From NCBI RefSeq assembly GCF_014195535.1, contig NZ_JACIBY010000002.1, positions 414,206-478,205 on the forward strand: a DNA stretch of 64,000 bases. The letters are read 5' to 3'. This DNA comes from Runella defluvii. Its GTDB lineage: Bacteria > Bacteroidota > Bacteroidia > Cytophagales > Spirosomataceae. The translations under genes were made by a program, and so were the position numbers. The notes below the pieces were generated by a model, which did not search any database, was not told the DNA's origin, and saw only the letters and a list, made by a program, of their open reading frames with translations. Shown here in pieces: positions 36,468-47,645 of this stretch; position 1 is the stretch's first letter; each line of letters opens with the position of its first letter.

Positions 36468-37478
36468 ATGTTAAATGGAAAATCAATCCTTGTAACTGGA
36501 GCAACGGGCTCATTTGGCAAGGAATTTATTAGAACGATTCTCAAGCTATACCCTGACGTTAAGCGTTTGGTGGTGTATTCGCGCGATGAATTGAAGCAGT
36601 TTGAAATGTCACAAGAATTTAGCCACAGCAAATACCCCGTCATACGGTATTTTATTGGGGACGTTCGCGACGAAGCCCGCCTCACGATGGCGTGCGAAGG
36701 CATCGACATTATCATTCATGCGGCAGCCCTCAAGCAAGTTCCTGCGGCGGAGTACAACCCGATGGAGTGCATCAAGACCAACATTTTAGGCGGTCAAAAT
36801 GTCATCACAGCGGCCTTGGCTACGGGTGTCCAAAAAGTAGTAGCCCTTTCGACCGATAAAGCGGCGGCTCCTATCAACTTGTATGGCGCAACCAAACTTT
36901 GTTCCGACAAATTGTTTGTGGCGGCCAACAACATCAAAGGCGCTCGTGATATTCGTTTTTCAGTCGTGCGTTACGGAAACGTCATTGGCTCGCGCGGTTC
37001 GGTTATTCCTTTTTTCTTGCAGAAACGCAAAGAAGGAGTTTTGCCCATTACTCACCCCGACATGACTCGTTTTAATATTTCGCTCGAAGACGGGGTAAAA
37101 ATGGTCCTGTTTGCCCTCGAAAATGCTTGGGGAGGCGAAATATTTGTCCCAAAAATTCCTTCTTACCGCATTACTGACGTAGCCGAAGCTATTGCGCCTA
37201 ACGCACGTCAAGAAGTGGTGGGGATTCGTCCTGGGGAAAAACTCCACGAGGAAATGATTACCGAAACCGATTCGCTCAATACCATCGAACTTGACAAGTA
37301 CTACGTTATTTGCCCAAGTACACCGATTTGGAGCATGGACGATTACGTCAACGCCTTCAACGGCCGCAAAGTCCCGTACGGGTTTGAATATAACTCAGGT
37401 ACCAACGACGAATGGCTTACAGTCGATGATTTACGCCAACAAATCAAGCAGCACGTTGACCCCAATTTTGAAGTATGA
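36468..37478 (+). CDS. pseB: UDP-N-acetylglucosamine 4,6-dehydratase (inverting)
   Basis: First enzyme of pseudaminic acid synthesis: converts UDP-GlcNAc to UDP-2-acetamido-2,6-dideoxy-beta-L-arabino-hexos-4-ulose. It is a 336-residue short-chain dehydrogenase with the NAD(P) loop VTGATGSFGKEF at residues 8-19, KAAAPINLYGATKL holding the Tyr-x-x-x-Lys pair, and the PseB-type stretch ALKQVPAAEYNPMECIKTN (given whole it is the substrate-binding region). Length is standard. Its stop overlaps the pseC start (ATGA), so the two are coupled. Confidence 0.95.
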   Translation: MLNGKSILVTGATGSFGKEFIRTILKLYPDVKRLVVYSRDELKQFEMSQEFSHSKYPVIRYFIGDVRDEARLTMACEGIDIIIHAAALKQVPAAEYNPMECIKTNILGGQNVITAALATGVQKVVALSTDKAAAPINLYGATKLCSDKLFVAANNIKGARDIRFSVVRYGNVIGSRGSVIPFFLQKRKEGVLPITHPDMTRFNISLEDGVKMVLFALENAWGGEIFVPKIPSYRITDVAEAIAPNARQEVVGIRPGEKLHEEMITETDSLNTIELDKYYVICPSTPIWSMDDYVNAFNGRKVPYGFEYNSGTNDEWLTVDDLRQQIKQHVDPNFEV

Positions 37479-38659
37479 TTCCTTACGGAAGACAAAATAT
37501 TACCGACGACGATATTGAAGTAGTGACCAAGGCGTTGCGCGCTGATTTTCTGACGCAAGGCCCCACTATTCATCAATTTGAAGTCGCATTTGCGGAATAT
37601 GTCGGCGCAAAATATGCCGTGGCTGTGGCCAACGGAACAGCCGCGTTGCACTTGTGTGCGCTAGCGTTGGACGTAACCGAAGGCCAAAAAGTGATTACTA
37701 CGCCTATTACATTTGCGGCATCAGCCAACTGTGTTCGCTACTGCGGCGGGGAGGTTGTTTTTGCAGACATTGACCCCGACACCTATTTATTGGACATCAA
37801 GGCGGTGCGCAACCTGCTTGCTTCCGCTCCTAAAGGAACCTATCAGGGAATTGTCCCCGTTGATTTTGCAGGACGTGCGGTTGATTTAGAGGCTTTTCGA
37901 ACCCTAGCTGACGAATACGGCCTGTGGATTATCGAAGATGCTTGTCACGCGCCAGGGGGCTATTTCAACGATAGCCAAGTGCACCTACAACGTTGCGGAA
38001 ATGGTCAATTTGCCGATTTGGCCATTTTCTCATTTCACCCCGTAAAGCACATTGCTTGCGGTGAAGGAGGAATGATTACTACCAATGATGCTTCCCTTTA
38101 CCAAAAGCTGCTGACACTTCGTACCCACGGCATCAGTCGCGATACCAATGGTTTCCAAAACTCCATTGCGTTTGCCGCAGGCGACGAGCAAGCCACCAAC
38201 TACCCAGGCTGGTACATGGAAATGCAAACGCTAGGCTATAATTACCGACTTACCGATTTTCAGGCAGCATTGGGAATTTCTCAGCTGGCTAGGGCCGACG
38301 AAGGCCTCACTCGACGACGCGAAATTGCGCAAGTTTACAACGCAGCTTTTGAGGGATTATCGTTTATCAAAGGACAATCGGGCGTGGTTGAGGGCCATGC
38401 GTACCACCTTTATGTGGTAGAAGTAGAGAACCGTTTGGGACTTTATACCCACTTACGCGAACAGCAGATTTTTGCCCAAGTTCATTACATTCCGTGCCAT
38501 TTGATGCCGTATTACCGCGCTCAAGGATGGAAAGAAGGTGATTTCCCTGCTGCCGAGAACTATTACCGCCACTGCTTGAGTTTGCCGATGTACCCTACCC
38601 TCACAGAAGCCCAACAAGCGTTTGTTATTCAAACAATTATTGATTTTTATCACTCATAA
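37475..38659 (+). CDS. pseC: UDP-4-amino-4,6-dideoxy-N-acetyl-beta-L-altrosamine transaminase
   Basis: Second enzyme of the pathway: a PLP aminotransferase of the DegT/DnrJ/EryC1 family that aminates the 4-keto product of PseB with glutamate as donor. The catalytic Lys is in FSFHPVKHIACGEGG; the start IPYGRQNITDDDIEVV and the box DACHAPGG are family-typical. Length 394 is normal. It follows pseB with a four-base overlap and is followed by a methylase gene seven bases on. Confidence 0.95.
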   Translation: MIPYGRQNITDDDIEVVTKALRADFLTQGPTIHQFEVAFAEYVGAKYAVAVANGTAALHLCALALDVTEGQKVITTPITFAASANCVRYCGGEVVFADIDPDTYLLDIKAVRNLLASAPKGTYQGIVPVDFAGRAVDLEAFRTLADEYGLWIIEDACHAPGGYFNDSQVHLQRCGNGQFADLAIFSFHPVKHIACGEGGMITTNDASLYQKLLTLRTHGISRDTNGFQNSIAFAAGDEQATNYPGWYMEMQTLGYNYRLTDFQAALGISQLARADEGLTRRREIAQVYNAAFEGLSFIKGQSGVVEGHAYHLYVVEVENRLGLYTHLREQQIFAQVHYIPCHLMPYYRAQGWKEGDFPAAENYYRHCLSLPMYPTLTEAQQAFVIQTIIDFYHS

Positions 38660-38666
38660 ATACATC

Positions 38667-39314
38667 ATGTCAACCACCACACAGGAAGCGTTTTGGAGCG
38701 GAGAATTTGGCAAAGCCTATTCCGATAGAAACAACTGGACGTCAGCTCAATATGACGACTTTTATCGACACGAATGGGGGATTACAAAGACTCAAATGAA
38801 CGAGGATTGCCTTCGTGACCTCCCCAAAGATGCCAAAATCTTAGAAGTGGGCTGTAACATTGGGCTACAATTACGGTGTCTCCAAGAAATGGGTTTCACC
38901 AATTTATACGGAATTGAGCTACAGCACTACGCGGTAGAAAAAGCTAAAGAAATCGTCAAAAACGTAAACATCATTCAAGGGTCAGGGTTTGATATTCCTT
39001 TCAAAGACAGCTACTTTGATGTGGTAGTAACAAACGGCGTGCTTATTCACATTGCTCCCGACGACCTACCGCGAATCATGTCAGAAATGGTGCGTTGTAG
39101 CAAAAAATACGTTTGGGGTTTTGAGTACTTCGCCAGCTCTTTGGTTAACATAAACTACCGCGGCAACGAAGGGTTTCTTTGGAAGGCAGACTACAGCAAA
39201 ATTTTCCAAGAAAATTTCCATCAGCTCCAAGAAATATATCGCAAAATGTACCCATACGTCTCTGCTTCACAGCAAGGAAATATGGACTACATGTATCTTT
39301 TGGAAAAACAATAG
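38667..39314 (+). CDS. SAM-dependent methyltransferase, pseudaminic-acid-cluster type
   Basis: A 215-residue class I methyltransferase with SAM loop ILEVGCNIGLQL and downstream VVVTNGVLIHIAPDDLP. This matches the family of methylases regularly found inside pseudaminic acid clusters; the start MSTTTQEAFWSGEFGKAYSDRN (in part: FWSGEFGKAYSDRN) is its signature. The product may be an O- or N-methylated pseudaminic acid or another sugar of the glycan; the acceptor is not known. ATG 38667 is used because the longer frame begins at TTG inside pseC. It ends three bases before pseF. Confidence 0.87.
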   Translation: MSTTTQEAFWSGEFGKAYSDRNNWTSAQYDDFYRHEWGITKTQMNEDCLRDLPKDAKILEVGCNIGLQLRCLQEMGFTNLYGIELQHYAVEKAKEIVKNVNIIQGSGFDIPFKDSYFDVVVTNGVLIHIAPDDLPRIMSEMVRCSKKYVWGFEYFASSLVNINYRGNEGFLWKADYSKIFQENFHQLQEIYRKMYPYVSASQQGNMDYMYLLEKQ

Positions 39315-39317
39315 CCG

Positions 39318-40013
39318 ATGAGTTGTATTGCCATCATTACGGCCCGAGGAGGCAGCAAGCGCATTCCCCGTAAAAACATCAAAGATTTTTTGGGGAAGCC
39401 AATCATTGCGTACAGCATTGAAGCGGCGCTTGCTAGTAATCTTTTTGACGAAGTAATGGTATCGACAGACGACGCTGAAATTGCCCAAATTGCCCAAGAA
39501 TACGGCGCAAAAGTTCCTTTTCAGCGGTCAGAAAAAGCATCTGATGATTTTGCAACAACGGCAGATGTAATCAATGAAGTTCTGGAAGCGTATCAACATA
39601 TCGGGCACCATTTTAGCACAGCTTGTTGCCTTTACCCAACAGCGCCTTTTGTCACAAAAGAGCTGTTGCAAAAGGCTTCTCAAACACTAAAAGAGGGAGA
39701 ATTCGACGCGGTGTTTCCTGTCATGCGGTTTTCGTATCCTATACAACGATGCCTCGTCCAAAAAACTGACCAGCGGTTCGTACTCCGTGAGCCACAGTAT
39801 TTTAGTGCCCGTTCGCAAGATTTAGAACCATGCTACCACGATGCAGGGCAGTTTTATTTCTTTGACGTTGCTCGTTTTTTCATCAATCAGCGCCTCATGA
39901 CCGACAATACGAGCTGCATTGAAATTTCAGAACTAGAAGCTCAAGACATTGATAATGAACAAGATTGGAAATTGGCGGAGTTGAAATACATGCTATTATA
40001 TGAGAAATTATAA
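39318..40013 (+). CDS. pseF: Pseudaminic acid cytidylyltransferase
   Basis: Makes CMP-pseudaminic acid from CTP and pseudaminic acid, the activated donor for glycosyltransferases. The 231-residue protein starts with the CTP-binding motif ARGGSKRIPRKNI (residues 9-21), and has YSIEAALASNLFDEVMVSTDD and YPTAPFV, all typical of the CMP-NeuAc synthetase family in its PseF branch. It overlaps the next gene by 14 bases. Confidence 0.94.
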   Translation: MSCIAIITARGGSKRIPRKNIKDFLGKPIIAYSIEAALASNLFDEVMVSTDDAEIAQIAQEYGAKVPFQRSEKASDDFATTADVINEVLEAYQHIGHHFSTACCLYPTAPFVTKELLQKASQTLKEGEFDAVFPVMRFSYPIQRCLVQKTDQRFVLREPQYFSARSQDLEPCYHDAGQFYFFDVARFFINQRLMTDNTSCIEISELEAQDIDNEQDWKLAELKYMLLYEKL

Positions 40014-41010
40014 ATGTTTATCTCGTCAAATTTTTGAGAATGAATCGTATCAGCTAGTACCTCTAAGAGACGAAGACAAATATTTAATCAGGCAATGGCG
40101 AAATGAGCAAATTTATCATTTACGTCAATCAAAGCCCCTTACCCTTGAAGCGCAGGAAGCCTATTTTTCAACGGTAGTGAGTTCATTGTTTGAACAAAAT
40201 CAACCTTCTCAGCTACTTTTTTCCTTTCTCAAAGACGGGCAACTTGTTGCTTATGGTGGTTTGGTTCATATTAACTGGGTTGATAAATATGCCGAAATTT
40301 CTTTTCTGATGAATACAAGTCTTGAAAAAGACTATTTCGAGGAGTTTTGGCTAAATTATCTACAATTAATTGAAAAAGTAGGTTTTAGCGAAGCCAACTT
40401 TCACAAGCTATTTACCTATGCTTTTGATGTAAGACCTCATTTATATCCAGTTCTTGAAAAGGCAGGTTTTCCGCTTGAGGCTCGCCTCAAGGAACATTGT
40501 TTTTTTGATGGGCGATTTATTGACGTACTCATTCATTCCAAATTGAATCGAACGCTCAGCTTCCGAAAGGCAATAGGCTCCGATGTTGATTTGTATTTTG
40601 AATGGGCCAATGATGAGGGAACTCGACAAAACTCTTTCAATTCTGACCCGATTCCGTACGATAAGCACGTTGACTGGTTTGTAAAAAAAATACAGGCCCC
40701 TAATAGCCTGATGTTGGTATTTGAGAACCATTTAAAACAGCCAGTTGGACAAGTTAGAATTGACAAAAACGACGATGAATCCGTCATTGGCATCTCAATT
40801 GCTAACCATTTTCGAGGTAATGGCTTTGCCACTTCCATGATAGCGCAAAGTATTCAAGCATTTTTTGAAACGTTTGAAACCGAAAGTAGTGTCATTGCTT
40901 ACATCAAGCTCGCTAATCTTGCTTCCAAAAAAGCTTTTGAACGGGCAGGATTTCATGAATTAGAAAGCACCGCCGATTATTACAAACTACAAACCAATCG
41001 TCAGCCATGA
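40000..41010 (+). CDS. Tandem GNAT acetyltransferase, probable PseH function
   Basis: A 336-residue protein made of two GNAT domains (about 17-170 and 185-330). The second (TRQNSFNSDPIPYDKHVDWF, then GQVRIDKND and ISIANHFRGNGFATSMI with the acetyl-CoA loop) closely resembles the GNAT domain that in other organisms is fused behind PseG. The first domain (RQWRNEQIYHLRQS, VAYGGLVHINW) is also GNAT-like but less typical in its CoA loop. One domain probably does the PseH step, acetylation of the 4-amino group of the PseC product. PseG itself, the UDP-sugar hydrolase, is not here and not elsewhere in the window. It overlaps pseF by 14 bases and the next gene by four. Confidence 0.85.
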   Translation: MRNYKCLSRQIFENESYQLVPLRDEDKYLIRQWRNEQIYHLRQSKPLTLEAQEAYFSTVVSSLFEQNQPSQLLFSFLKDGQLVAYGGLVHINWVDKYAEISFLMNTSLEKDYFEEFWLNYLQLIEKVGFSEANFHKLFTYAFDVRPHLYPVLEKAGFPLEARLKEHCFFDGRFIDVLIHSKLNRTLSFRKAIGSDVDLYFEWANDEGTRQNSFNSDPIPYDKHVDWFVKKIQAPNSLMLVFENHLKQPVGQVRIDKNDDESVIGISIANHFRGNGFATSMIAQSIQAFFETFETESSVIAYIKLANLASKKAFERAGFHELESTADYYKLQTNRQP

Positions 41011-42131
41011 GAAAAGTGTTCTTTTTTTTCGTCTTTATAGTCCTGCACCTAACTGTTAAAGGACAAGACCCTACACCAGACGCTTGGGTGGAAGACAATT
41101 CAAATACGGCTATTACTTTACCTCCAAACTTGGGGGTAGGTAGCAATTTAAGAGGGTTAATATCTATTCTTAAAACACCTAGTGATTCTACATTGGAGCA
41201 AATTCTTAAAATCAAGGTTGCTGATGCACCCAAAGATTTCTTGGCATTTACCAATTCTACGGTTTTAAACGGGCGCTTTATGCCCTCTATTCTTGCGCAT
41301 AATGAAACAGACAGACGTTTTTCTATGTCTTTCAGCGTTTCAACAACCCCTGAAAATGATTTTGGTAATGAGCCTATTGTCAAGTTTGATGCTCGAACAT
41401 ACACCAATGGAGAAGCGCTCTTAGGGCCTGGTTTTGTTACGAACCGACCTTTATTTTCGTGGACAAACCTAAACGTGATAAAAATGATTTTATCAGCCAA
41501 TGGTTCACTAGGCATTGGTACCATCACTCCTCAAGCCCAATTACATACCACAGGTTCTGTTCGGTTCGAAGGTGTACAGGTAGGACTAGGAAGTGTACTT
41601 CTTACGACTGATGCTCAAGGAACTTTGTTGAGAAACTTCTTGCCAAACAATTCAACCGTTGCGATAGCTACTACCTCTCCTGCTATCAATAGTCTGCCAA
41701 GATTTAATCAATCGAACGTGCTGGTTAATAGTCAATTGTACGACAATGGTACCAATATAGGCATTGGCGGCGTTCCTGTTCCAAACGCCAAAGTGACCGT
41801 CTATGGCACCATAAATGCGCTCTCTGACGCTCGTACCAAACGTAATATTGCCCCAATAGGTAATGCGTTACAAATGGTGAACCAATTGAATGGTTACTAC
41901 TACAACTGGAATACTTCCGACGAAAAACAAGTAGGGTTAATCGCTCAAGAAGTTGAGAATGTATTACCTGAGTTAGTATCGCACAACGAAAGCGGTACTA
42001 AGTTTCTGAACTATGACGGCCTTACCCCCGTTCTAGTAGAAGCTATTAAAGAGCAACAACAACTTCTCCAACTGCAAGCTGCCCAAATAAAAGAGCTTCA
42101 AAAAGAGATTGAGAAATTAAAAAAACGATAA
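41007..42131 (+). CDS. Secreted fibre protein with C-terminal peptidase S74 (endosialidase-type) chaperone domain
   Basis: A 374-residue exported protein (signal peptide ending VKGQ, residue 20). The middle is beta-rich and carries 'LGIGTITPQAQLHTTG' (167-183), a motif of Bacteroidota tail-fibre-like proteins. Residues 271-374 form an S74 intramolecular chaperone: ALSDARTKRNI with Ser273 and Lys278, the spacing of the self-cleaving Ser/Lys pair of phage endosialidases, then YYYNWN, VGLIAQEVENVLPELV and a C-terminal coiled coil (about 343-374). It should trimerise and cut itself just before Ser273. It overlaps the GNAT gene by four bases and pseI by one, so it is embedded in the sugar operon. 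Its target or glycosylation state is unknown. Confidence 0.88.
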   Translation: MRKVFFFFVFIVLHLTVKGQDPTPDAWVEDNSNTAITLPPNLGVGSNLRGLISILKTPSDSTLEQILKIKVADAPKDFLAFTNSTVLNGRFMPSILAHNETDRRFSMSFSVSTTPENDFGNEPIVKFDARTYTNGEALLGPGFVTNRPLFSWTNLNVIKMILSANGSLGIGTITPQAQLHTTGSVRFEGVQVGLGSVLLTTDAQGTLLRNFLPNNSTVAIATTSPAINSLPRFNQSNVLVNSQLYDNGTNIGIGGVPVPNAKVTVYGTINALSDARTKRNIAPIGNALQMVNQLNGYYYNWNTSDEKQVGLIAQEVENVLPELVSHNESGTKFLNYDGLTPVLVEAIKEQQQLLQLQAAQIKELQKEIEKLKKR

Positions 42132-43195
42132 TGTTTGCCAACGAAATTCAAATCGGTCATGTAACTATTAGCCCTGATCATCGGCCGTTTATTATCGCTG
42201 AAATGTCGGGTAACCACAATCAATCGCTTGAACGAGCGTTTGAGCTGGTGGATGCTGCGGCCAAAGCTGGTGCTCATGCACTTAAACTTCAAACCTACAC
42301 AGCCGATACCATCACATTTAATGGCAAATCGGACGAATTTTACATCCGCGACGATAATTCACTCTGGAAGAATCAAAACTTACACCAACTGTACCAACAA
42401 GCATATACCCCTTGGGAATGGCACAAGCCTATTTTTGACCGTGCTAAATCCCTCGGGATGATTGCTTTCAGTAGCCCATTCGATCTTTCGGCCGTTGATT
42501 TTTTAGAGTCGTTGGAAGTGCCTTGTTACAAAATTGCCTCGTTTGAAAATACCGACCATACGCTTCTCAAAAAAGTGGCCAAAACGGGGAAGCCTGTCAT
42601 TATGAGTACAGGTGTAGCGAGTATTGCTGATATCCAAGAGTCCGTACAAGTGCTAAAAACCAATGGTTGTACTCAATTAGTACTCCTAAAATGTACCAGC
42701 ACTTACCCTGCAACCCCCGAAAATACCCACTTACTGACCATTCCGCACATGCGCGAGCTTTTCAGATGCCCTGTCGGTCTTTCAGACCACACCATGGGTA
42801 TTGGTGCGGCAGTAGCTTCAGTAGCGTTGGGCGCACGGGTGATTGAAAAACACTTCACGTTACGTAGAGCTGATGGGGGCGTGGACTCCGCATTTTCCCT
42901 TGAACCTGAGGAAATCAACGCTTTGGTGGTTGAATCAGAACGAGCGTTTTTAGCAATGGGGCGAGTCAACTACGAATTATCGGCCAAGGAACAAAAAAGC
43001 CTACAATTCAAACGCTCGCTGTACGTAGTCAAAGACATCAAAGCAGGTGAGGCTTTTACGGCCGAGAATGTTCGCAGTATTCGTCCTGCCAATGGATTGC
43101 ATACGCGCTATTATGATCAAATTTTACAAAGCCACGCTTCGCGCGACATTGAAGCTGGTACTGCATTAGAATGGGGGCTAATTGCCTCGTCATAG
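42131..43195 (+). CDS. pseI: Pseudaminic acid synthase
   Basis: Condenses 2,4-diacetamido-2,4,6-trideoxy-L-altrose with phosphoenolpyruvate to give pseudaminic acid. The 354-residue NeuB-family protein has a TIM-barrel domain (FIIAEMSGNHNQSLERA near residue 18, KLQTYTADT, KIASFENTD, MSTGVASI, LKCTSTYP, LSDHTMG, EKHFTL) and a C-terminal SAF/antifreeze-like domain (about 285-350, RSLYVVKDIKAGE and 'NVRSIRP'). The sequence is of the PseI rather than the NeuB type, and agrees with PseB and PseC beside it. Confidence 0.95.
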   Translation: MFANEIQIGHVTISPDHRPFIIAEMSGNHNQSLERAFELVDAAAKAGAHALKLQTYTADTITFNGKSDEFYIRDDNSLWKNQNLHQLYQQAYTPWEWHKPIFDRAKSLGMIAFSSPFDLSAVDFLESLEVPCYKIASFENTDHTLLKKVAKTGKPVIMSTGVASIADIQESVQVLKTNGCTQLVLLKCTSTYPATPENTHLLTIPHMRELFRCPVGLSDHTMGIGAAVASVALGARVIEKHFTLRRADGGVDSAFSLEPEEINALVVESERAFLAMGRVNYELSAKEQKSLQFKRSLYVVKDIKAGEAFTAENVRSIRPANGLHTRYYDQILQSHASRDIEAGTALEWGLIASS

Positions 43196-43197
43196 GA

Positions 43198-44700
43198 ATG
43201 GCCCAAATCAAAAAACAGACCTTTCAAAGTACCATCTATTCTTACTTAAGCGCAGCAGTTGGCTTGGTAACTCAGGGGTATGTTATCCCTAATTTCTTTG
43301 CAACTGACCAAAATGGGCTCATCAGCCTGTTTTTGTCGTTGATGCTACTGCTGCCCTTATTTGCTAACCTTGGATTCAACGGAGCGGGAACACGCTACTT
43401 CCCCTATTTTCGTGATGCCAAAACCAACGACCATGGCTACGTATTTTTAGCCCTGTTGTTTTCCTTTATTGGTTTTATTATCGTCGTTGTTGCGCTCTGG
43501 TTTTTCAAAGAAGGGCTTATCGAAGAATACCAAAAGAAGTCCATTCTGTTGGTCAAATATTACCCGTATTTGCTACCTATCGTGGCTTTTATGTTGATAT
43601 TCAACGTATTTGATGTTTATTCTCGCCTGCATTACGACTCCGTGACGGGTACGTTTTTAAGCCAATTTGTATTACGTTTCAACAACCTCGTGGTTGCACT
43701 TCTGTACGCCTTTCGCTGGATAAACTTCGACCAGTTTATGATGATTTGGTGCGCGGGAATTTCGTTACCAATGGTACTTATTGTGCTCAAAACCATTCGA
43801 GAAGGGCGATTTTCGTTACGCCCTGATTTTGGTTTTTTAAAACAATCCCACTTATTGGTTCCCATTCTTAAATTTTGCGCGCTCTCCATTATCGCCTCAC
43901 TTTCTTCGCAAATTGTCCTCTACATCGACAAAATCATGATTACCGATATGATTGACTTGAATGCAGTGGGAGTTTATAGCACAGCGTCGTTTTTTGGAAC
44001 AGTCATAGCCATGCCAATGATTGCGATGCAGCTTATTGCGGGCACGATAGTAGCAGAAGCGTGGAAAAATAACGACCACGAAAATATTGCCAAAATTTAC
44101 CAAAAGAGCTGTTTGGTTCAACTTTTCGTAGGGTTATGGGTATTTCTCGGAATCTGCGTCAACCTCGACAACATTTTCGAGTTTCTACCACCCGCCTACG
44201 AAGCAGGCCGCTGGGTGATTGTGTGGATTGGTCTTTCAAAAGTGTTGGACATGGCAACTGGTATCAACGGTACGATTCTTAATACCTCAAAGTATTACTA
44301 CCTCGATACGATTTTCTTTATCGTCCTTATTTTTTGTACCGTATTATTAAACCACCAATTGATTCCTACGTTCGGGATTGAAGGGGCTGCGATTGGAGCG
44401 GTTGTTTCAGTATTCATCTACAACCTTTGCCGTTATGGGCTCCTTTGGTACTTGTTTGGTTTTCAACCTTTTAATTCCAAAAACGCCATTGTTATTGGGA
44501 TGGGAATTGCTTCTTTTGGGCTAGTAAGTTTACTACCAAGTTTAACAGGCAGCCCGATTGCCATACTTGGAGACATGGCTTACCGTTCCGTTACCATTAC
44601 GTTGCTGTTTGTCGGTGGTTTTTATGTAAGTGGCTACTCCCCAGAGTTTAACCAACAGTGCAAAACTATCTATCAAAAAATCTGGGGAATAATAAAATAA
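43198..44700 (+). CDS. Wzx-like polysaccharide flippase (MATE/PST superfamily)
   Basis: A 500-residue membrane protein with about fourteen helices, of the polysaccharide transporter superfamily that flips undecaprenyl-linked glycans. The N-terminus IKKQTFQSTIYSYLSAAVGL and the central FCALSIIASLSSQIVLYIDKIMI (residues ~225-245; part shown: SQIVLYIDKIM) fit this family. I start it at ATG 43198, three bases after pseI; ATG 43171 overlaps pseI by 25 bases and is also possible. No Wzy polymerase is in the locus, so short units may be flipped and attached. A terminator follows directly. Confidence 0.88.
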   Translation: MAQIKKQTFQSTIYSYLSAAVGLVTQGYVIPNFFATDQNGLISLFLSLMLLLPLFANLGFNGAGTRYFPYFRDAKTNDHGYVFLALLFSFIGFIIVVVALWFFKEGLIEEYQKKSILLVKYYPYLLPIVAFMLIFNVFDVYSRLHYDSVTGTFLSQFVLRFNNLVVALLYAFRWINFDQFMMIWCAGISLPMVLIVLKTIREGRFSLRPDFGFLKQSHLLVPILKFCALSIIASLSSQIVLYIDKIMITDMIDLNAVGVYSTASFFGTVIAMPMIAMQLIAGTIVAEAWKNNDHENIAKIYQKSCLVQLFVGLWVFLGICVNLDNIFEFLPPAYEAGRWVIVWIGLSKVLDMATGINGTILNTSKYYYLDTIFFIVLIFCTVLLNHQLIPTFGIEGAAIGAVVSVFIYNLCRYGLLWYLFGFQPFNSKNAIVIGMGIASFGLVSLLPSLTGSPIAILGDMAYRSVTITLLFVGGFYVSGYSPEFNQQCKTIYQKIWGIIK

Positions 44701-44749: not shown

Positions 44750-45472
44750 TTATGGTTTTCTTAACCAATAATTGAGACAAGTTTGTCCGTGGCCGTAGGT
44801 TGACACTTTCATTACCTCCGCTGCTTTTCCTTCAAAACCTTTGTTAAATTTTTCAATTTTAAAGCCAGCCTTTTCAAAAATCGGCGGACAAATAGTTTCA
44901 GTTAAAATCAACGGGTGCATTTTGTTGGTCACGTAATGCTCATCAAACGACAAAAATGCCCTTGCACCAGGTTTTAGATAGGTATATAAATTGGCGATGA
45001 TTTCGTCAAAATTATAACAATGGTCGAGAACGTTGATACTAAAGATAAAGTCAACTTGCCCGACCAATTCTGGAATGGATTGCTCGGCGGGCGTTGAAAA
45101 CACTTTCCACGCATCACGTAAATCCGTCCACGGAATTTCGCGCAATACGTCGTCGGCCATTGGTTCCAAGGCCACCAATTTGGCATTTTTAAAGTATTTA
45201 CCACGCAACATACTCCCTGCTCCCACATCCAAAACTACCTTGCCCGCAAATTCATCCGCTTCAAAACCCCATGCTTTAAACAAGACGCTTGTTTGTTGTA
45301 AGAAGCCTTCCGTTTGGCGCCATGTGTCGTTTTTGTGAAAAGCGAACTCTCCTTTTTGGGCCTCTGCTTTCCATTTACTAGGATCGGCCGCCGTTTTAGA
45401 TTGACGTGTTGTTCGAAAAAAGACCTCAATGAGTGGTTCTAATTGGCGATATATCTTCCCGATAAGCGACAT
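44750..45472 (-). CDS. Class I SAM-dependent methyltransferase
   Basis: A 240-residue methyltransferase with the SAM-binding loop VVLDVGAGSMLRGKYF (about residues 80-95), the acidic strand-2 end LVALEPMAD, and FIFSINVLDHCYNFDEII after strand 4. It is transcribed towards the pse operon, divergent from the sialyltransferase-like gene, and is likely part of the same glycan locus. The acceptor is unknown. A TATCTTTG box at 45507-45514 lies 35 bases before the ATG. Confidence 0.82.
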   Translation of the reverse strand: MSLIGKIYRQLEPLIEVFFRTTRQSKTAADPSKWKAEAQKGEFAFHKNDTWRQTEGFLQQTSVLFKAWGFEADEFAGKVVLDVGAGSMLRGKYFKNAKLVALEPMADDVLREIPWTDLRDAWKVFSTPAEQSIPELVGQVDFIFSINVLDHCYNFDEIIANLYTYLKPGARAFLSFDEHYVTNKMHPLILTETICPPIFEKAGFKIEKFNKGFEGKAAEVMKVSTYGHGQTCLNYWLRKP

Positions 45473-45608: not shown

Positions 45609-46643
45609 ATGACTCGACATTTATTCAACGTCCACAGTCCAATCACGTACTTTATGGCACTGGAAGTGATTCGCCTCGAAAAGATTCCCGTCGAAGCAGT
45701 TACACTTCTCATTAGCCGTAATTTCTTGCCTCCAGACGGCACCTACCATGCGATACCACTGCCTTTTTCTCATTATCCGATAGATTCGTTTGCTGTTCAA
45801 ATCGCTTTTTGGAAATCTTGGAACAAGGTGAGAGCATTTGACCAGTGGCTTGAACAAATAACGCACCAACAGCCCTTTTTCCTCTACGCTGCCCATGCTT
45901 ACAGCAGTATTTTTCACCTCATGGTGACGCATCCGATGTGTCAGGGCTATTATTATATTGAAGAAGGGCTAGTGGCTTATCGACCTCCCGCCGATTGGGA
46001 CATTAAAAAGCCCTTTAATCCGCTTCGTTCGGTACTTTATTATCTAAATTTTGGTCAAAGAAATCGTTCAAATCGTAGTTTTTTTACGACACAATTGGGA
46101 CGTTATTTGGGTGCATTTGGGGTATCACAACACTCTTTTCCTACGCTTACCAATCTCCAAATAGTTGGTTTACCTTTTCCTAAGATTGAATCTGAGGAAA
46201 AGTACCAGTGCGTTATTGTTCATGACAATATCTATGACCACCATGGTTTGACGCCAACTACCTACCTTCGATGGATTGACGTGATTGTAACCGATGCCTT
46301 CAAACGTGGTTTTACCAGTATTCATCAAAAATTTCACCCCGCTCAAGGGCAAGCTTCATTGCAAGCCATTGAAGCGTTTATGCAGCAAAAAGTCGCTGGG
46401 AAGGCCAGCCTCCACACGCTAGGCGCCTCTGACTCTATCGAACAAATTTCCCTCAGTCAGCGCCCTGTTATTTATGTTTGTATAAGTAGCGTTGGGCTTT
46501 ATGCTCATTTGGCTGGTTCGGAGGTGGTGAGTATCTACAAAATCTGTTGCCAAGACCAGCCCGTTTTTCAAGATTTTGGGCATTTGTTGCCGAGTTTTTA
46601 CCTCCAAAATGTCACTTATTTGTCGTATCCATCTCAAAATTAA
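45609..46643 (+). CDS. Putative nonulosonic acid (pseudaminic acid) transferase, sialyltransferase-like
   Basis: A 344-residue protein without signal peptide. I did not recognise it by overall sequence, but three short motifs of bacterial sialyltransferases (families GT38/GT52/GT97) occur in the right order and spacing: D/E-D/E-G as YYIEEGL (Glu118-Glu119-Gly120), His-Pro as KFHPAQ (243-244), and the Ser pair as CISSVGLYA (293-294). In those enzymes the first acts in catalysis and the others bind the CMP donor. As the locus makes CMP-pseudaminic acid, this is the best candidate for the transferase that uses it. Weakness: the motifs are short. A strong promoter is just upstream, and a GT2 gene starts six bases after its stop. 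Confidence 0.65.
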   Translation: MTRHLFNVHSPITYFMALEVIRLEKIPVEAVTLLISRNFLPPDGTYHAIPLPFSHYPIDSFAVQIAFWKSWNKVRAFDQWLEQITHQQPFFLYAAHAYSSIFHLMVTHPMCQGYYYIEEGLVAYRPPADWDIKKPFNPLRSVLYYLNFGQRNRSNRSFFTTQLGRYLGAFGVSQHSFPTLTNLQIVGLPFPKIESEEKYQCVIVHDNIYDHHGLTPTTYLRWIDVIVTDAFKRGFTSIHQKFHPAQGQASLQAIEAFMQQKVAGKASLHTLGASDSIEQISLSQRPVIYVCISSVGLYAHLAGSEVVSIYKICCQDQPVFQDFGHLLPSFYLQNVTYLSYPSQN

Positions 46644-46649
46644 TGCCCA

Positions 46650-47645
46650 ATGAATCAACCATTGGTTTCAGTCATTGTCCCTTGTTATAACTACGGTCGG
46701 TTTATTGCCGAAACATTAGAAAGTCTTCAAAATCAAACACTTCAAAACTGGGAGTGCGTGGTTGTGGATGACGGCTCTACCGACGATAGTGCTGAGGTTG
46801 TACAAAAATTTGTAGAAAGTGACCCCCGTATTCGTTACGTTTATCAGCAAAATCAGGGACTTCCTGCCGCTCGCAATACAGGGATTCGGGCCACAACGGG
46901 GAAATACATTCAGTTTTTGGATTCCGATGATTTATTACAACCCGACAAGCTCCAACACCATACGGCGTATTTGGAAACACATGCCGAGGTTGAGCTTGTT
47001 TATGGCGGGTTACGCTATTTTTATGACGGCACCTCTGAACTTATTTTTTCTCCCCAACATAAAAACACCCCTTGGACCCTCGATAAGTCGGGCGAAGGAA
47101 TAGCTCTTTTGCCATTTTTAGTGATTTCCTGCGTCATTATGCCTCCCATGCCCGTGATGCGGCGAACGACGATAGAAAAAGTAACGGGGCTTTTTACGGA
47201 AGATTTACCTTCTTGTGAAGACTGGGAGTTTTGGATTCGGTGTTGTTATAAAAACGTCCAATTTAAGTACCTAGACTTACCTAATACCTTGCCGCTCATG
47301 CGCTTACATCATACCAGCATGACTCGTAATCGCATCGTTATGGTCAATAGTTTTATTGAAGTTCGGCAACGGTTACGCCCCATTTTACCCACCCCTCAGC
47401 TAGTCAAGCTCAACGAAACGTTATTAAATAATGATTTTGTTGAAAAATGTATCTTAACCCTCGAACGTGAAGGGCGTAAGGCTGCGATACGCGAAGCATT
47501 TTACTTGTCTATTGAACGAAAAAGTAGTATTTTACTCGGGTGGAGTATTTTACTTTTTGCCTTACCGCCAACGTGGGCAGTAAAGCTTCTTCAACTCCAG
47601 CGTTCATTTCACAAACGTTTTTATCACTGGGTATTTAAAAAGTAA
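46650..47645 (+). CDS. Family 2 glycosyltransferase
   Basis: A 331-residue GT-A fold glycosyltransferase. The N-terminal domain has SVIVPCYNYGRFIAETLES, VVVDDGSTDDS, NQGLPAARNTGI and FLDSDD (the DxD metal site, about residues 88-93), all GT2 hallmarks. The C-terminal part is helical with a hydrophobic stretch (about 300-315) that may touch the membrane. It probably adds an ordinary sugar to the glycan to which the neighbouring sialyltransferase-like enzyme adds pseudaminic acid. Sugar and linkage cannot be predicted. Confidence 0.92.
   Translation: MNQPLVSVIVPCYNYGRFIAETLESLQNQTLQNWECVVVDDGSTDDSAEVVQKFVESDPRIRYVYQQNQGLPAARNTGIRATTGKYIQFLDSDDLLQPDKLQHHTAYLETHAEVELVYGGLRYFYDGTSELIFSPQHKNTPWTLDKSGEGIALLPFLVISCVIMPPMPVMRRTTIEKVTGLFTEDLPSCEDWEFWIRCCYKNVQFKYLDLPNTLPLMRLHHTSMTRNRIVMVNSFIEVRQRLRPILPTPQLVKLNETLLNNDFVEKCILTLEREGRKAAIREAFYLSIERKSSILLGWSILLFALPPTWAVKLLQLQRSFHKRFYHWVFKK

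Follow-up and report, generated by a model that had tools for sequence, protein, structure and literature searches.

Background

Few pseudaminyltransferases are known, and those named in the sources cited here, KpsS1, GtfS and the Maf proteins, are of other kinds than the protein considered here. KpsS1 is a retaining transferase of pseudaminic acid (Pse) that belongs to family GT118 and is homologous to KpsC (PMC12887879), while the Maf proteins are proposed flagellin Pse transferases (PMC6388019). Tannerella GtfS carries D/E-D/E-G and HP motifs and its knock-out loses the sugar (PMC6388019), and the Tannerella cluster is given as pseBCFHGI, with pseG included (PMC6120980). Bacillus subtilis SpsB also has DEG and HP motifs and sits in a Leg cluster, yet is dispensable for Leg transfer (PMC7439481).

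The nearest solved structure is that of the Mannheimia haemolytica polysialyltransferase (MhPST) of family GT38. In this enzyme E153 is the catalytic base with E152 as its support, H291 is an acid acting on the phosphate, the ribose is bound by E323 and the phosphate by S339 and T340, and loss of R259 lowers kcat/Km about 2000-fold (PMC5517516). In the literature that we searched, which leaves subscription papers mostly outside, we found neither a GT38-like Pse transferase nor a described Pse route without PseG.

Here we describe a gene of Runella defluvii whose 344-residue product we read, at a probability of about 0.7, as an inverting, CMP-dependent GT-B pseudaminyltransferase from a divergent GT38-like branch that transfers Pse to a lipid-linked glycan. 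The gene lies in a stretch of 64,000 nucleotides (contig NZ_JACIBY010000002.1, positions 414,206 to 478,205), referred to below as the window. An initial annotation, made from the letters of the window, had proposed a pseudaminyltransferase on the strength of three short sialyltransferase motifs and neighbouring Pse genes.

Results

A maintained gene within a pseudaminic acid locus

The reading frame is uninterrupted from ATG to stop and encodes 344 amino acids. Across the six pairs formed by the four sequences of the genus its dN/dS is 0.08-0.15, and the gene is therefore maintained under purifying selection in Runella. Its surroundings are listed in Table 1. PseB, PseC, PseF and PseI all score above the NCBIfam equivalog cut-offs, and the PseH-like C-terminal domain of the two-domain GNAT protein matches TIGR03585 at 49.4 bits, under the cut-off of 93.1. 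The methylase start is taken as the inner ATG; the mechanical ORF starts at 38622. Amid the Pse genes, at 41007-42131, lies a protein whose C-terminal domain is Peptidase_S74 (endosialidase chaperone); it is absent from L009 and L068, so the locus can do without it.

Table 1. Features of the locus, numbered from the first nucleotide of the window
Feature	Position	Strand	Basis or correspondence
PseB	36468..37478	+	TIGR03589 527 bits, cut-off 408
PseC	37475..38659	+	TIGR03588 467 bits, cut-off 424
Pse-associated methylase	38667..39314	+	TIGR03587 231 bits, cut-off 112
PseF, CMP-pseudaminic acid synthetase	39318..40013	+	TIGR03584 295 bits, cut-off 206
Two-domain GNAT: N-terminal GNAT (residues 1-180) and PseH-like C-terminal GNAT	40000..41010	+	PF13420, PF13302
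PseI	42131..43195	+	TIGR03586 519 bits, cut-off 340
Wzx-type flippase (Polysacc_synt)	43171..44700	+	PF01943
SAM methyltransferase, opposite strand	44750..45472	-	PF13489
Candidate CMP-pseudaminic acid transferase, GT38-like GT-B protein, 344 aa	45609..46643	+	ORF, family alignment, PDB profile match, fold
E118 E119 G120 codons	45960..45968	+	E119 falls on E153, the catalytic base of MhPST
H243 P244 codons	46335..46340	+	H243 falls on H291, the catalytic acid of MhPST
E278 codon	46440..46442	+	Aligns with ribose-binding E323 of MhPST; absent from the initial annotation
S293 S294 codons	46485..46490	+	Align with phosphate-binding S339/T340 of MhPST
GT2 glycosyltransferase, 6 bases 3' of the 344-aa gene	46650..47645	+	

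Relatives and predicted fold point to the GT38-like superfamily

Taken alone, the 344-aa protein matches no Pfam or NCBIfam model at E ≤ 1, no PHROGs entry at E ≤ 5 and no PDB sequence at E ≤ 10 (phmmer). The R. defluvii genome gives no match to PF07388, the alpha-2,8-polysialyltransferase model (A-2_8-polyST), at E ≤ 10, and a scan of viral contigs held no relative of the protein. Family membership is instead supported through relatives. The proteins of L006 and L007, found directly with the 344-aa protein as query (E 3.8e-9 and 6.6e-9 per genome), match PF07388 over its gathering score of 23.3 bits, a score passed by 8 of the 21 family proteins scanned: L006 (32.0 bits), L007 (43.0), L014 (38.7), L016 (39.5), L017 (34.6), L019 (56.9), L020 (25.4) and L058 (27.8). 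The protein of L018, cut by the end of its contig, falls just below at 21.9 bits. At an E limit of 1 (0.01 for L012 and L015 singly) the model has no match in the 344-aa protein, its three Runella orthologues, L005, L010-L013, L015, L059 or L080.

A tree of 17 proteins, from which L002, L003, the cut L018, L021 (the same as L005) and L080 were omitted, has two main branches. L006, L007, L014, L016, L017, L019 and L020 stand in the branch opposite the 344-aa protein, and L058, which also matches PF07388, shares its branch. An alignment of 18 family members (A3), in which 8 rows match PF07388 at E ≤ 1 with the sub-cut-off L018 among them, was used as a profile against the PDB. MhPST (5wcn, 5wd7, 5wc6, 5wc8) was found at E 5.4e-6 and is the sole PDB class below E 0.2. 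The match scores 28.7 bits after a bias correction of 18.4 bits, and because this correction is large we do not rely on the match alone.

The predicted structure points the same way. An AlphaFold2 model built from 15 sequences (A4; mean pLDDT 84.2, pTM 0.82) is a GT-B fold, the fold that the initial annotation had named as the one to look for. In a Foldseek search of 350,542 chains the model ranks first with CDP-bound MhPST (5wcn_A; E 9.2e-10, TM 0.65 by query length, 13% identity), followed by 5wc6 and by the Photobacterium damsela sialyltransferase 4r83 (E 4.5e-6), so that ranks 1-3 are all sialyltransferases. Ranks 4-8 hold trehalose-phosphate synthase, UDP-GlcNAc 2-epimerase and a second chain of 4r83 (E 2.8e-5 to 3.7e-5), and rank 9 is the Neisseria LOS sialyltransferase 2yk5 of family GT52 (E 3.7e-5). 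For the predicted model, MhPST thus stands clearly apart in the list, and the ranking beneath it does not separate donor types.

The 344-aa protein is best read as part of a divergent branch within the PF07388/GT38-like superfamily. The suggestion that it may be a new family gives way to that of a variant, because relatives and predicted fold are GT38-like even though PF07388 misses the protein itself. Of the families proposed for a profile search, GT38 is thereby recovered through the profile of the relatives. GT52, whose model we take to be PF07922, was ruled out: the protein has no Pfam match at E ≤ 1, and 2yk5 resembles the predicted fold less closely than MhPST does.

The motifs align with the nucleotide pocket of a polysialyltransferase

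E118-E119-G120, H243-P244 and S293-S294 had been placed correctly, as their positions in the translation confirm. The protein holds a further HP at residue 108 and a further SS at residue 99, and in 20,000 shuffles of its sequence [DE][DE]G occurs in 7.7%, HP in 68% and SS in 89%. All three are present in order in 1.4% of the shuffles, so the bare motifs are no more than suggestive, and we discarded the motif search on its own as evidence.

Conservation of the columns among the 18 aligned family members raises the motifs above chance. In A3, four rows of which come from one genus and are not independent, EEG is kept in 18/18. The row of L018 ends before the second motif, which leaves 17 members for all later columns: K241, E278, Y298, A299 and S308 are each found in 17/17, the column of S293 is S or T in 17/17, S294 is kept in 15/17 (A in 2) and P244 in 15/17. 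In the column of H243 the His is kept in 12/17 and replaced by R in four rows and by T in one, which weakens any rigid three-motif rule. Near the N-terminus H9, S10 and T13 are kept in 18/18; we suppose that they take the role of MhPST Q41/Q44.

In the profile alignment, columns E118, E119, H243, E278, S293 and S294 fall on MhPST E152, E153, H291, E323, S339 and T340 (paper numbering is chain index + 19, counted by hand from the alignment). The alignment thereby supports placing the sialyltransferase-type motifs on the catalytic base and CMP pocket known from a polysialyltransferase structure. A position outside the nucleotide pocket had been named as grounds for abandoning the motif reading; aligned with MhPST, the motifs are predicted to lie inside it. 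Among residues 203-215 there is no Arg counterpart of MhPST R259, and an Arg occurs in the columns of residues 210/211 in 5 of 17 relatives (L005, L007, L013, L016, L019).

Family loci are linked to CMP-ulosonate synthesis

The gene itself was found in 4 of the 99 genomes searched (R. defluvii included), all of one genus; the copy of Runella limosa (L008) is 93% identical. More distant relatives were gathered by sequence searches blind to neighbours. Besides R. defluvii, the search of the phylum found 3 genomes among 395 and that of the order 3 among 291, one of them a weak partial match, and the search of genome contigs gave 14 loci, 2 of Runella and 12 distant. An annotated homologue, named 'hypothetical protein', lies on a plasmid of Alistipes indistinctus (L080). 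Excluding the partial match (G662, E 1e-4) and counting L005/L021 once, we obtained 21 loci: 4 from Runella, 12 at L010-L021, one each in G207 (L061), G291 (L062), G572 (L058) and G603 (L059), and the Alistipes plasmid.

Ulosonate-synthesis genes (NulO/Kdo-type) lie within the fetched stretches of 17 of these 21 loci, or 14 of 18 with Runella taken once. As a rough yardstick, matches to the PseI model number about one per genome (59 relatives), and chance would seldom place one within about 17 kb. The sugar type varies. Pse-type loci are those of Runella and L020 (PseI 63% identical, PseG 188 bits; no CMP-synthetase within its fetched stretch), and the Neu/Leg type comprises L014 and L018 (TIGR03569, 492 and 491 bits, cut-off 400) together with L080 (NeuA, NeuB and NeuC by annotation). 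L010 and L015 are of Kdn type: their CMP synthetase is fused to a domain resembling Kdn-9-phosphate phosphatase, which scores 173 and 167 bits, slightly below the cut-off of 180. The remaining type, aldolase/CMP-synthetase, is represented by seven loci (L013, L016, L017, L019, L021, L061, L062). No ulosonate genes were found near the family member in L011, L012, L058 or L059; a NeuB-type match lies elsewhere in three of these four genomes, and none was found anywhere in G603 (L059). Family loci are thus supported as strongly linked to CMP-ulosonate synthesis, and in Runella to that of pseudaminic acid.

Two of these settings deserve separate description. The aldolase-type loci share a cassette of a 4-hydroxy-2-oxovalerate-aldolase-like protein of 512-516 aa, a KdsB-like or PseF-like CMP-synthetase, a HAD phosphatase and a GT38-like glycosyltransferase (L016:3618-9020 in L016). 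The aldolase-like model match was obtained in L016 only, whose protein is 48-63% identical to those of the other six loci; perhaps the cassette is an aldolase-type CMP-ulosonate pathway. In a planctomycete, L015:6861-11510 encodes a protein of 1549 aa with two tandem copies of the glycosyltransferase domain (about residues 1-330 and 380-700), adjoined by the Kdn-type genes.

Co-occurrence with PseI in the genus

Of the genus's 13 genomes, G000, G003, G007 and G010 carry the gene. These are precisely the genomes whose PseI passes the cut-off, and in all four the gene is embedded in the Pse block. A low-scoring NeuB-type match (120-142 bits) occurs in 12 of the 13, G007 being the exception; the one copy examined, that of R. 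defluvii, belongs to a Kdn-type locus without a family member. Because the gene tracks PseI (4/13) and not the NeuB-type gene (12/13), it goes with Pse rather than Kdn in the genus. This co-occurrence counts as one event and not four, since the Pse genes are passed on together as one block. The Kdn-type locus (L081, R. defluvii contig C11) is a second CMP-NulO locus, in which NeuB, a CMP-synthetase and a separate phosphatase are interspersed with two large proteins of 552 and 556 aa; its NeuB shares 70% identity with the NeuB of L010.

By identity the nearest relative is that of L010 (31.5%); like L015 of the same branch, it sits in a Kdn-type locus, and the donor can therefore not be read from the phylogeny. 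In L010 a GT2 gene again adjoins the family member. Between the Pse locus and L010 the GT2 proteins are 46% identical vs 32% for the family members, and this better conservation of GT2 fits the 344-aa protein, not GT2, meeting the changed sugar. The TIGR03587 methylase in the Pse locus suggests that the sugar made there is modified.

PseI-bearing genomes without PseG carry an additional GNAT domain

The initial annotation had described the neighbouring genes as a complete CMP-pseudaminic acid supply. This needs correction: PseB, PseC, PseF, PseI and a PseH-like GNAT are present, and the PseG model TIGR03590 finds nothing in the entire R. defluvii genome (7.99 Mb, listed completeness 99.99%) or elsewhere in the genus (13 genomes in all). 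With PseG missing, the CMP-Pse supply itself is not certain.

Among 17 relatives with PseI over the cut-off (R. defluvii included), PseG is over the cut-off in 9. G070 has a PseG-like match of 126 bits, below the cut-off, and 7 of the 17 count as PseG-less, including G065 with one match of 21 bits. The N-terminal GNAT domain (40000-40539) has a strong homologue (E ≤ 1e-47) in 7 of the 7 PseG-less genomes and in 0 of the 10 others; outside those 7 the search covered 52 genomes, whose best match has E 6e-6. Four of the seven are Runella, and by genus the comparison is 4 vs 10. Gene by gene, across 16 loci, the N-terminal GNAT is present in all seven without PseG (besides the window L063, L064, L065, L066, L068 and L069) and strongly in none of the nine with it (a 27% match in L070), and a TIGR03587-like methylase is found in 7/7 and 2/9, respectively. 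This comparison excluded L078, a short stretch of G070 whose PseG-like match is on another contig, and L067. The latter (G003 contig C2) is a second Pse locus without PseG, in which the copy of the N-terminal GNAT is decayed with 11 stops; it counts against the rule at the level of the single locus, not at that of the genome. Two explanations would fit: a substitute for PseG that accompanies the N-terminal GNAT, or a different sugar made by these loci. The pattern suggests that PseG-less loci represent a variant route with another UDP release, or a different sugar.

Discussion

Computation supports the open reading frame, the family membership through relatives, the fold, the residue correspondence and the gene linkage of the 344-aa protein, which is very probably an inverting CMP-ulosonate transferase. 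The earlier proposal of a pseudaminyltransferase holds as regards the GT-B fold, the pocket-aligned motifs and the CMP-ulosonate linkage, and its remaining element, CMP-Pse as the donor, is one that we infer, together with inversion, a cytoplasmic site, a lipid-linked acceptor and single transfer in place of polymerisation. In the proposed mechanism a cytoplasmic inverting GT-B enzyme would take pseudaminic acid, or perhaps a derivative bearing a methyl group or another modification, from the CMP donor and attach it to a lipid-linked glycan, which the adjoining Wzx would later flip. E119 would act as the base on the acceptor hydroxyl, H243 and S293/S294 would hold and neutralise the CMP phosphate, and E278 would bind the ribose. 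Other members of the branch would use different CMP-ulosonates.

Two alternatives keep a transferase of this kind and change what it does with the donor. The donor may be CMP-Kdn, or CMP-Kdo, instead of CMP-Pse, in which case the protein is still a CMP-ulosonate transferase. The Kdn-type settings of L010 and L015 and the Kdn-type locus that R. defluvii itself carries on contig C11 favour Kdn, and CMP-Kdo is general in Gram-negative bacteria. We regard this as rather unlikely: within the genus the gene is distributed like PseI and unlike the low-scoring NeuB-type gene (one copy of which was examined), G007 has the gene and PseI with no other NeuB-type match, and the gene stays within the Pse block in all four genomes. 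That the protein is a processive polymerase making poly-pseudaminic acid, as GT38 polysialyltransferases do with sialic acid, appears improbable, even though both the nearest solved structure and the Pfam family are polysialyltransferases. GT38 capsules have an ABC-exporter setting, whereas here a Wzx-type flippase and another glycosyltransferase accompany the gene; moreover, R259 of MhPST is without an Arg counterpart here, with Arg at or beside the site in 5 of 17 relatives.

The remaining alternatives take the donor away from the 344-aa protein. The neighbouring GT2 might transfer Pse, leaving the 344-aa protein to transfer something else or serve as an accessory; the two genes are co-inherited in the genus, and SpsB offers the precedent of a motif-bearing protein that is not the Leg transferase (PMC7439481). 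GT2 is the better kept of the two between the Pse locus and L010, which speaks against this, and we consider it highly improbable. We also know of no CMP-ulosonate transferase of family GT2. The idea that the motifs are coincidental and that the protein is a GT-B glycosyltransferase using an ordinary NDP-sugar draws on the frequency of such short motifs by chance and on the trehalose-phosphate synthases and UDP-GlcNAc 2-epimerases that enter the Foldseek list from rank 4. It is hardly credible given motif columns that are conserved over 18 members in register with the CDP-bound MhPST pocket, and given sialyltransferases in the top three Foldseek rows.

The preferred reading, a pseudaminyltransferase, can be extended into a more tentative one, to which we give somewhat less than even odds. 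The family may be an unrecognised GT-B branch, mostly beyond current models, of general CMP-ulosonate transferases whose donors have repeatedly changed (Pse, Kdn, Neu/Leg and the product of the aldolase/CMP-synthetase/HAD genes), with the Runella member a polysialyltransferase-fold pseudaminyltransferase unlike KpsS1, GtfS or Maf that acts on Pse made without PseG. A polysialyltransferase-like candidate whose base, acid and nucleotide pocket are predicted lends itself to direct testing. A family that pairs with different CMP-ulosonates offers a natural series for how donor choice is set, and it can serve as a marker for unknown ulosonic acid pathways, for example the aldolase-type cassette or the PseG-less loci.

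Comparison with known systems

KpsS1 of Acinetobacter baumannii shares the Pse donor. A KpsS1-like assignment was ruled out: PF05159, which we take to represent the KpsS1/GT118 kind, has no match in the 344-aa protein or the R. defluvii genome, and matches 1 of 18 relatives at E 0.017. GtfS of Tannerella forsythia (TFUB4_00887) is likewise from the Bacteroidota, has D/E-D/E-G and HP motifs and lies by genes for CMP-Pse or CMP-Leg; it is set apart as a protein of 442-445 aa with a TagB-like domain and a DXD motif. PF04464 (Glyphos_transf/TagB), presumably the TagB-like kind of Tannerella GtfS, has no match in the 344-aa protein or the R. defluvii genome, and a GtfS-like assignment was ruled out as well. 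The Maf proteins share proposed Pse transfer, but the 344-aa protein matches no Pfam model. GT80 (4r83) and GT52 (2yk5) share the GT-B fold and the CMP donor at Foldseek ranks 3 and 9, with a fold match weaker than that of MhPST and without a sequence-model match to the 344-aa protein. MhPST differs in its low identity (13% by Foldseek), in having the Arg at R259 that is absent from the corresponding place, and in using Neu5Ac where the Runella locus makes a Pse-type sugar. It is a GT-B enzyme with the E-E-G base, the H-P acid, the ribose Glu and the S/T phosphate pair, to which the predicted counterparts in the 344-aa protein correspond in the same order and register.
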